Part shown: positions 13,762-32,853 of the stretch, one piece after another
Position numbering within the stretch: position 1 is the first letter of the stretch
Layout: each line of letters starts with the position of its first letter
Source of the DNA: Actinomycetota bacterium
GTDB taxonomy: Bacteria; Actinomycetota; Acidimicrobiia; Acidimicrobiales; Ilumatobacteraceae
Assembly: GCA_016871355.1 (NCBI GenBank)
Contig: VFZC01000002.1
Coordinates: 1-64,000 of the forward strand
DNA length: 64,000 nucleotides
Direction of reading: 5' to 3'
Program-made: the position numbers and the translations under genes
Notes under the pieces: generated by a model
Databases searched by the model: none
What the model was told of the DNA's origin: nothing
Seen by the model: only the letters and a program-made list of their open reading frames with translations

Positions 13762-13900
13762 CACCTCGTGCGGGGTGTGGGTGAAAGTCCCAACCGGCGG
13801 TGAGAGCCCGCGAACCCGGAGTCGGCAGCGATGTCGACGCCGGGCCGATCCGGTGAAATTCCGGAGCCGACGGTCAGAGTCCGGATGGGAGCACGGGTGC
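13762..13900 (+). promoter_or_regulatory. FMN riboswitch (RFN element)
   Basis: The aptamer shows the RFN landmarks in order: GGGTGAAAGTCCCAACCGGC, GGTGAGAGCCCGCGA, GGTGAAATTCCGG, AGCCGACGGT, AGAGTCCGGATGGGAG, closed by a P1 pairing of CTCGTGC with GCACGGG. It precedes ribD and should lower expression when FMN is abundant. A possible -10 box TAGGCT (13739-13744) would start the transcript just upstream. Confidence 0.97.
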
Positions 13901-31076: not shown

Positions 31077-31108
31077 GATAAAACGAAAACGCCGCCCACT
31101 GGGCGGCG
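31077..31108 (-). terminator. Attenuator terminator before cimA
   Basis: On the minus strand CGCCGCCCA and TGGGCGGCG pair around one base, followed by TTTTCGTTTT. It lies between the Ile leader peptide and cimA, the position of an attenuation terminator. Confidence 0.85.
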
Positions 31109-31111
31109 TGT

Positions 31112-31135
31112 GCGCACGAGGACGACCCCGTGCGC
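31112..31135 (-). promoter_or_regulatory. Pause/antiterminator-region hairpin of the cimA leader
   Basis: GCGCACG and CGTGCGC pair over 7 bp between the leader stop codon and the terminator. It could be the pause hairpin; the competing antiterminator pairing was not resolved by eye. Confidence 0.55.
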
Positions 31136-31185
31136 TAGCGAATAATGATGATCGCAACGGCGGCGGAGGCAGACAGAGCGTTCAT
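31135..31185 (-). CDS. Isoleucine-rich leader peptide of cimA
   Basis: A 16-codon reading frame, MNALSASAAVAIIIIR, starts at an ATG with a GGAAGG site 3-8 nt upstream and ends in TAG. Four consecutive Ile codons (ATC ATC ATT ATT) fall just before the stop, and a hairpin then a terminator follow. When charged tRNA-Ile is scarce, a ribosome should stall on this run and favour read-through into cimA. Classic attenuation is known for ilv operons of actinobacteria; here the target is the citramalate route. Val and Leu codons are also present once each. Confidence 0.88.
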   Translation of the reverse strand: MNALSASAAVAIIIIR

Positions 31186-31241: not shown

Positions 31242-31371
31242 TGTGGACGACCTGTGGGCAACGGTGTGCATCACCGGTGAACAAATCCCCGATTTCTGTG
31301 GATTGACGGAAAAGTTAGGGGATAACCCTGTGAGTAGAAAAATATCCCTTGACCAGGACTGATGTGGATGG
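31242..31371. other. Cluster of four DnaA-box-like TGTGG motifs
   Basis: TGTGGACGA (31242-31250), TGTGGGCAA (31253-31261), TGTGGATTG (31297-31305) and TGTGGATGG (31363-31371) lie in one orientation and differ by one or two bases from TGTGGACAA/TGTGGATAA. A modestly AT-rich stretch lies between the last two. No dnaA or dnaN gene is near, so this is not a normal oriC setting; it could be a DnaA-binding cluster or chance. Confidence 0.25.
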
Positions 31372-31377
31372 CACAGT
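31349..31377 (+). promoter_or_regulatory. Candidate promoter of the structured RNA
   Basis: TTGACC (31349-31354), a 17-bp spacer and CACAGT (31372-31377) would start transcription near 31384, just where the series of stem-loops begins. The -10 match is weak. Confidence 0.4.
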
Positions 31378-31383
31378 CTTCTC

Positions 31384-31816
31384 ACCGGGACGAAAACGGT
31401 GACGAGATCCAACGTAGGGCTCCGGCCCTCTAGTGGGTCCCGACCACACGAGCGGCTCGGGAGAGGTCATCGACGTCCTGTGGGTGACGGGGGCAACCCC
31501 GGCACACACATTTGGATCTCCGATCGGCCGCTTCGCGAGGGAGACCTCCCGAAGGGGCAAGGGGAGGTTCGCACGGGCGACCCGTGGGCAACCATGAGGG
31601 CGCCGGTGGGTTCGGGGTCTCGGAGGGCAACTTCCGGGGCACACGGATCGGACCCTGAAATGGCACTCGCCCGCCGGGGGCAACTCCGACGGGCGAGTCA
31701 AGTGAGCGAACGAAGGGTAACAACCCTCGATCGATCGCCGGTGGATGACCTCGATCTCGAGAGCCCCGATGGAGCGCCGGGTAACCGGCAGCACCACTCG
31801 GGGCTCTCGTCTTGTA
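31384..31816 (+). ncRNA. Unclassified structured RNA candidate, about 430 nt
   Basis: This gene-free stretch folds on the plus strand into consecutive hairpins: AGGGC-TCCG-GCCCT (31416-31429), CGGGG-GCAA-CCCCG (31488-31501), ACCTCCC/GGGAGGT (31544-31568), CACGGG-CGA-CCCGTG (31572-31586), CGGAGG-GCAA-CTTCCG (31621-31636), a 9-bp stem ACTCGCCCG/CGGGCGAGT (31665-31698) enclosing another GCAA hairpin, and a final 12-bp stem (31758-31769/31798-31809) enclosing GCCGG-GTAA-CCGGC and followed by TCTTGTAT. Four GNRA and one UNCG-like loop read correctly only on this strand. I find no RNase P, tmRNA or SRP signature. The next gene has its own -10 box, so this looks like a separate transcript. Confidence 0.65.
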
Positions 31817-31820
31817 TCGG

Positions 31821-31826
31821 TAGCGT
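31821..31826 (+). promoter_or_regulatory. Leaderless -10 box TAGCGT
   Basis: TAGCGT ends 7 nt before the ATG of the agmatinase-family gene and 11 bp after the terminator-like stem of the structured RNA, suggesting the gene is transcribed independently. Confidence 0.45.
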
Positions 31827-31833
31827 GACGCGC

Positions 31834-32853
31834 ATGGCCTCAGCCGACGGGCGCGACACACCACGCCGCGAGCTTCCCGACGGACTTCGCGAGCAACTCG
31901 ACCTCGGTTACAGCTTCGGTGGTCTGTCCACCTTCGGCCAGCGCCCATTCCTCACCGAACCATCCGATCTCGATACCTGGCAACCCGATGTGGCCATCGT
32001 CGGTGCCCCGTTCGACAACTCCACCACCAATCGTCCGGGGGCGCGTTTCGGCCCGCGCGCGATTCGCACGCAGGCCTACGAACCCGGCACGTACCACATG
32101 GATCTCGGCATCGAGATCTTCGACTGGCTCGAGGTCGTCGACTTCGGCGACGCCTACTGTCCGCACGGACTCACCGAGTTGAGCCACGCCAACATCAAGG
32201 CGCGCATCGCCGAAGTGGCGAATCGCCACATCGTCCCGCTCGTACTCGGTGGCGATCACTCCATCACCTGGCCGTCGGCCACGGCGGTGGCGGCCGCTCA
32301 TGGTTACGGCAACGTGGGCATGGTGCACTTCGATGCTCACGCCGACACCGCCGACATCATCGGTGGCAATCTCGCCAGCCACGGCACGCCCATGCGTCGC
32401 CTCATCGAGAGTGGAGCCATTCCGGGCTCGCACTTCGTGCAGGTGGGTCTGCGCGGCTACTGGCCACCCAAGGACGTGTTCGACTGGATGGCCGCGCAAG
32501 GAATGCGCTGGTTCACCATGCACGACATTTGGGAGCGCGGCTTCCAGACCGTCATGCGTGAGGCGGTCGACCAGGCCTTGGCCTCGGCCGACAAGCTCTA
32601 CATCTCGATCGACGTCGACAGCCTCGACCCGGCCTACGCACCAGGCACCGGCACACCCGAACCCGGTGGCATCGTGGCAGCCGACTTACTGAGGATGGTG
32701 CGCACACTGTGTCTCGAACACGACGTGGTGGGCATCGACATCGTGGAGGTCGCCCCGGCGTACGACGTGAGCGAACTCACCGTGAACGTGGCCCATCGTC
32801 TGGCGTTCGAGTGTTTGGCCGGTCTGGCCGCCCGCAAACGGTCTTCTGGTTAG
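31834..32853 (+). CDS. Ureohydrolase (agmatinase/guanidino-acid hydrolase family)
   Basis: A 339-aa manganese-dependent ureohydrolase. Metal ligands are intact: H142 (GGDHS), D167, H169 and D171 (FDAHADT), D260 and D262 (SIDVDSLDP). It releases urea from a guanidino compound: agmatine, guanidinobutyrate, a related acid or guanidine; the substrate loop does not let me choose. The ATG at 31834 is preferred because the in-frame sequence further upstream is the hairpin region, not protein-like. No ribosome site; TAGCGT supports leaderless start. Converges with ilvE. Confidence 0.9.
   Translation: MASADGRDTPRRELPDGLREQLDLGYSFGGLSTFGQRPFLTEPSDLDTWQPDVAIVGAPFDNSTTNRPGARFGPRAIRTQAYEPGTYHMDLGIEIFDWLEVVDFGDAYCPHGLTELSHANIKARIAEVANRHIVPLVLGGDHSITWPSATAVAAAHGYGNVGMVHFDAHADTADIIGGNLASHGTPMRRLIESGAIPGSHFVQVGLRGYWPPKDVFDWMAAQGMRWFTMHDIWERGFQTVMREAVDQALASADKLYISIDVDSLDPAYAPGTGTPEPGGIVAADLLRMVRTLCLEHDVVGIDIVEVAPAYDVSELTVNVAHRLAFECLAGLAARKRSSG

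Follow-up and report, generated by a model that had tools for sequence, protein, structure and literature searches.

A predicted stand-alone structured RNA gene of the Acidimicrobiales, preceded by a phased DnaA-box-like array

Introduction

An intergenic stretch of the window, the whole 64-kb piece of DNA that was analysed, carries a single-copy gene for a structured RNA with its own putative promoter, a hairpin-rich 5′ domain, a constrained 3′ core and a predicted intrinsic terminator, as established by comparing the sequence with that of relatives. Immediately 5′ of the -35 element lies a phased array of same-strand, DnaA-box-like repeats, and same-genus relatives that lack the RNA also lack the array. 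The explanation that we favour, with somewhat more confidence than doubt, is that of a stand-alone gene for a trans-acting structured RNA of the Acidimicrobiales, which would be controlled by DnaA or another reader of the boxes and whose core would be held by a protein. Free-standing structured RNAs are a known kind of gene, and it is the link to a phased DnaA-box-like array that constitutes the unusual part. The family appears to be new: Rfam 15 does not contain it, and no description of the RNA was found in the part of the literature covered. It is widely distributed among the environmental actinobacteria of this little-studied order, nine genomes of which yielded no 6S RNA. Owing to the unusually regular array at its promoter, cultured Ilumatobacter would allow a direct test of whether replication control is linked to an RNA regulator. 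The features are collected in Table 1.

Table 1. Predicted elements of the RNA gene and of the DNA upstream of it (window positions).
Feature	Position	Strand	Details and basis
Same-strand DnaA-box-like repeat array	31242-31336	+	About seven units; sequence; conserved in 38 order loci
Array units 1-4	31242, 31253, 31265, 31276	+	TGTGGACGA, TGTGGGCAA, TGTGCATCA, GGTGAACAA
Array units 5-7	31297, 31317, 31328	+	TGTGGATTG, AGGGGATAA, CTGTGAGTA
Promoter	31349-31377	+	-35 TTGACC 31349-31354; 17-bp spacer; -10-like CACAGT 31372-31377
Structured non-coding RNA	31384-31816	+	Start (~31384) and end (~31816) both predicted
Variable 5′ domain	31384-31654	+	Short stable hairpins with GNRA/UNCG-type loops
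Core hairpin 1	31665-31698	+	Lower stem TCGCCCGC/GACGGGCGA; conserved C.A mismatch; variable, covarying upper stem
Core hairpin 2	31702-31739	+	Conserved AGGNUAAC inner hairpin; R2 model and alignments
GGUGGAU	31740-31746	+	Near-invariant, predicted unpaired; alignments
Terminal hairpin, intrinsic terminator	31758-31809	+

Fold, Boundaries and Strand of the RNA

According to a sequence-only reading of this DNA, an unclassified structural RNA of about 430 nt stands here by itself and ends near 31816. This proposal is supported, since relatives keep both the sequence and the pairing, no Rfam family matches, and the stretch holds no conserved protein. The stretch 31378-31820 (+) has a minimum free energy (MFE) of −253.4 kcal/mol, compared with −196.1 ± 6.7 for 100 dinucleotide shuffles, none of which was as good (z = −8.6), and the MFE fold of the RNA in the window is predicted to be multibranched. 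The strand is not fixed by energy alone, because the minus strand of the stretch also reaches a z of −6.4; it is set instead by the promoter, the terminator and their order. The tetraloops listed in the earlier reading (GCAA at 31493, 31627 and 31680, GTAA at 31781 and TCCG at 31421) are all present in the sequence, as are the stems at 31665/31698 and, with 12 bp, at 31758-31769/31798-31809. The repeated GNRA loops, which had been presented as the key feature, turned out not to be conserved, the loop of hairpin 1 being GCAA, UUCG-like or longer in distant relatives. As to the list of elements, the RNA itself stood, but the conserved promoter and the upstream array had both been overlooked.

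The 5′ domain is the most variable part of the RNA, with a length that differs widely between species, and the whole RNA is predicted to span about 290 to 830 nt in relatives. Repeated CCGGGCAACCGG hairpins occur inside this domain in some Ilumatobacteraceae. At one locus (L003, genome G019), about 80 extra bases lie just before the core and include a degenerate second hairpin 1, which suggests an internal duplication of RNA modules.

As expected of a structured non-coding RNA gene, the sequence provides a promoter and a terminator of its own. TTGACC or TTGACG, together with a -10-like element, is conserved upstream of the RNA in relatives, and an A-rich tract lies just 5′ of the promoter. TTGAC is also present in seven loci missed by the promoter pattern, most of which carry a similar box array. 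At the opposite end, most distant relatives have a TTTT or TTTTT run right after the last hairpin, and the T run of the window is weak.

No conserved protein was found when one was looked for in this stretch. In the window, the frame 31399-32853 crosses the RNA without a stop; in relatives it is closed by in-frame stops, which rule out a coding sequence across the RNA. Nor did the covariance models of known families provide a match: no Rfam 15 family exceeded its gathering score within the stretch, no match within the RNA was shared among 13 homologous loci, and the sub-threshold matches (F6, dauA, SrbA and others) differed from one sequence to another and are taken as chance. The stretch does not match RNase P RNA (RF00010), whose copy in this genome is on a different contig (G000:C14:21316-21670). 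In another part of the window, an FMN riboswitch is located at 13762-13900 (+; RF00050, 93.6 bits).

A Conserved and Covarying 3′ Core

The 3′ core (31665-31746) is composed of two adjacent hairpins and the GGUGGAU motif. Among the aligned cores hairpin 1 has a lower stem of nearly invariant sequence and GGUGGAU has a single exception (L024), an invariance that is due in part to selection, as many of the aligned loci were chosen by a DNA pattern requiring parts of the stem and GGUGGAU; the same loci were also recovered by a covariance search free of this pattern. Hairpin 2 combines a variable outer stem with the conserved inner AGGNUAAC hairpin.

Both sequence and pairing are kept in relatives, with compensatory base changes in the conserved helices, as is characteristic of structured non-coding RNA genes. 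Across 29 sequences the core structure is paired in 92.4% of cells, and 11 of its 23 pairs have changed on both sides and are still paired. Cells with such double changes number 56, compared with 15.7 ± 3.7 after shuffling (0 of 500 shuffles as high), and control structures slid by 1-3 columns are paired in only 25-41% of cells. RNAalifold, given no structure, predicts the same three helices. When applied to the window, the covariance model R2 matches 31665-31748 (57 bits, E 2.5e-11), which is its sole significant match in the 64 kb.

Eight pairs in the lower stem of hairpin 1 never vary, and hence give no covariation signal. Because neither strand of this stem varies, although compensatory change would preserve the pairing, the core may be held by a protein, which probably reads the invariant stem as sequence. 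It could also be postulated that the molecule is a base-pairing small RNA whose exposed GGUGGAU pairs with mRNAs, as this motif is near-invariant and predicted to be unpaired; such a role would not account for the lower stem of hairpin 1, which is double-stranded and invariant, and we regard it as quite unlikely.

Two further pairings were considered and discarded. A pseudoknot joining GGUGGAU to the 5′ domain was rejected because the motif has no consistent partner there, its exact complement being present in two Microthrix-like sequences only. GACGGGCG of hairpin 1 is complementary to CGCCCGUC, which we take to be part of 16S rRNA near position 1400; this match is not kept by the flanking bases and is taken as chance.

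Distribution and Genomic Neighbourhood

About 50 Acidimicrobiales genomes, from Ilumatobacteraceae, Ca. Microthrix and others, were found to contain relatives of the RNA, with one copy in each. A DNA search of 61 related genomes gave matches in the same genus, in one other genus of the family and in one other family of the order. A first covariance model, built from 13 sequences, together with the core DNA pattern placed the RNA in several Acidimicrobiales families, and a scan of named genomes located it in Ilumatobacter nonamiensis, many Ilumatobacteraceae, Ca. Microthrix and other Acidimicrobiales. According to a second model, 26 of 41 genomes of the family carry it, again in one copy each; the family genomes devoid of the RNA are mostly of 1.5-2.2 Mb, and the carriers are mostly larger. 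The exact pattern, searched in 396 genomes across the phylum, matched only within the order, and the reversed core pattern, used as a control, gave zero matches. Five candidates of the named-genome scan, from Actinomadura, Planobispora and one delta-proteobacterium (L075, L091, L099, L100 and L105), have neither the AGGNUAAC hairpin nor the terminator and were rejected as chance matches.

In the matching loci of the genus, the RNA lies between a divergent cimA and an agmatinase-like gene, which encodes an Arginase-family protein. In four genomes of the same genus (G003, G007, G009 and G016) and in one of a genus with other carriers (G194), a short gap separates the cimA leader from the agmatinase-like gene: the array, the promoter, the RNA and the terminator are absent together, and the cimA leader with its terminator and the agmatinase-like gene are kept. 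Outside the family, the neighbours of the RNA are prenyltransferase-like and hydrolase-like genes (named by eye), an enoyl-CoA hydratase gene, an IclR/ABC-transporter pair or a DUF459/histidine kinase pair. Since the neighbours differ outside the family, the RNA would serve no particular one of them, and it probably acts in trans.

The adjacency of the RNA and the agmatinase-family gene on the same strand, in the genus of the window and in many Ilumatobacteraceae, could be taken as indicative of a cis-acting leader or attenuator of that gene. Such a role is given hardly any credence: the RNA ends in a terminator of its own, in many carriers the gene downstream is another one or was not found, and genomes without the RNA have retained the agmatinase-like gene. 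A riboswitch or leader of the downstream gene is, in the same way, ruled out by the terminator, the changing neighbours and the empty sites.

The flanking genes display features of their own. The cimA leader (31086-31185, minus strand), conserved in the genus and in family relatives, would encode a peptide of 16 residues (MNALSASAAVAIIIIR), with four consecutive codons for Ile, and a GC-rich terminator comes next; by its sequence the leader appears to be a classical isoleucine attenuator. At 31817-31834 of the window, a GGTAGSGTG motif, conserved in relatives a few bases before the start codon of the agmatinase-like gene, suggests a leaderless transcript for this gene.

The Upstream DnaA-Box-Like Array

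The unit starts of the array in the window are spaced by 11, 12, 11, 21, 20 and 11 bp, and the aligned loci share CTGTGNACAAC, GGTGGACGAAC, CTGTGGATAAC, GGTGGATAACC and CTGTGA repeats directly upstream of the -35. Boxes were counted against TTATCCACA, TTGTCCACA or TCGTCCACA. In the 135 bp upstream of the order loci, box-like 9-mers within one mismatch average 2.5, compared with 0.15 in shuffled sequence; 94 of 96 boxes lie on the same strand, the commonest spacings being 11, 20 and 21 bp. The pattern employed to locate the promoter contained one box, so the count was repeated in the 90 bp beyond it with the anchor box excluded. This recount gave 1.55 boxes per 90 bp at one mismatch versus 0.095 after shuffling (about 16-fold), with 58 of 59 boxes on one strand, and 3.2 versus 0.85 per 90 bp at two mismatches. 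Several 9-mers within two mismatches of TTATCCACA or TTGTCCACA are found clustered above chance, as in a DnaA-box cluster, and nowhere else in the 64-kb window are such boxes as dense as in the array. Many of its boxes deviate, either by a C as the last base or by two mismatches.

High-affinity DnaA boxes correspond to TTATCCACA in E. coli and to TTGTCCACA in M. tuberculosis and S. coelicolor (PMC4285127). In genomes of the order, the same box words occur in the dnaA-dnaN gap, beside an ACT-rich run, and directly after parB. The array is read as DnaA-box-like because of these counts, the published boxes and the recurrence of the same words in the dnaA-dnaN gap and after parB, and we infer that it is bound by DnaA or by another regulator that recognises such boxes. 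At individual loci, the dnaA-dnaN gap (oriC) of L146, L147 and L144 harbours a DnaA box beside a DnaA-trio-like CTACTACTA run. Right after parB, around position 1500 of L160 and L153, there is a second GTGGATAAC[CT]CTGTGG site, conserved in two species of the genus; these sites are probably DnaA boxes near the origin.

It is also conceivable that the array is bound by MtrA, PhoP or another response regulator of the OmpR family instead of DnaA, the rest of the interpretation remaining in place. The units are 11 bp apart, on the same strand and just upstream of the -35, 11-bp direct repeats also suit such regulators, and some units read CTGTGAC, the reverse complement of GTCACAG, which is presumably a word for mycobacterial MtrA. 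However, the most conserved units read GTGGATAAC/GTGGACAAC, i.e., TTATCCAC/TTGTCCAC, and the same words are found at oriC and after parB in genomes of the order, so that we consider this regulator unlikely, if still a serious contender.

Alternatively, the DNA array might be the functional part, binding DnaA on the chromosome much as the E. coli loci datA and DARS do, with the RNA being secondary. The array is conserved across the order, and in three small-genome genera without the RNA (L167-L169) box-like repeats persist beside cimA, with a different next gene; given these remnants, the array may serve a purpose independent of the RNA. In addition, datA and DARS are non-coding regions acting on DnaA (PMC4585315). 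Against this proposal, covariation of the RNA core would be needless for a DNA element, and array and RNA co-occur in unrelated gene neighbourhoods; we consider it very unlikely.

A Model for the Action of the RNA

Under the favoured explanation of a trans-acting RNA under the control of a box-reading protein, DnaA or another such regulator would assemble cooperatively on the phased array and, once bound, would set the rate of the sigma-70-type promoter. The level of the RNA would thereby be tied to the activity of DnaA and so to replication. The transcript would end at its own terminator and act in trans through the constrained core, for which a grip by a protein would be the simplest answer to the invariant stem. 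It would affect a global process, transcription or replication for example, and not the neighbouring gene. That the RNA is DnaA-responsive, with phased DnaA boxes setting its transcription and coupling replication to a global process, is a more specific proposal, which we advance tentatively, as a possibility somewhat short of an even chance.

Comparison with Known Systems

Ms1 (Mycobacterium MTS2823, Streptomyces scr3559), in the parts of its literature considered here, resembles the RNA described above: both are free-standing RNAs of actinobacteria, a few hundred nt long, with a promoter and an intrinsic terminator of their own, and both are missing mostly from small genomes. It could be argued from the similar size and from the presence of an own promoter and terminator that the two are functional counterparts, the RNA of the Acidimicrobiales being, like Ms1 or 6S RNA, an abundant molecule that binds RNA polymerase and adjusts its availability. 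In line with this, a covariance model of 6S RNA (RF00013) found no match in the nine order genomes tested or in the window stretch. Moreover, the portion of the Ms1 report considered (PMC9130861) places Ms1 in 14 actinobacterial orders with no mention of Acidimicrobiia there, and describes it as missing mainly from small genomes, as is the RNA studied here. On the other side, Ms1 and 6S RNA form long hairpins with a central bubble, according to the part of the source considered (PMC4191392), whereas the present RNA is predicted to fold into a row of short hairpins and a compact core. Furthermore, Ms1 adjoins a HAD hydrolase gene (PMC9130861, in the same portion), and no such HAD-IB gene adjoins the RNA in the loci examined, where the neighbours are cimA and the Arginase-family gene, or others elsewhere. 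Because fold and synteny disagree, the RNA is not filed as Ms1, and its being a functional counterpart is considered unlikely. No DnaA-box-like array is described for Ms1 in the parts of these sources considered.

Compared with other systems, the RNA is similar to 6S RNA in being a stand-alone, single-copy structured RNA, and differs from it in giving no match to the RF00013 model. The array shares with datA, DARS and other DnaA-box clusters the character of an intergenic cluster of box-like sequences away from oriC; unlike in those, its boxes are in one orientation and helically phased, and the promoter of a structured RNA follows them directly. Lastly, OLE, GOLLD and ROOL are long, hairpin-rich RNAs with stable tetraloops whose role is unknown or partly known, and the RNA described here is distinct from them in having no Rfam match, a small conserved core and a single chromosomal copy between housekeeping genes.
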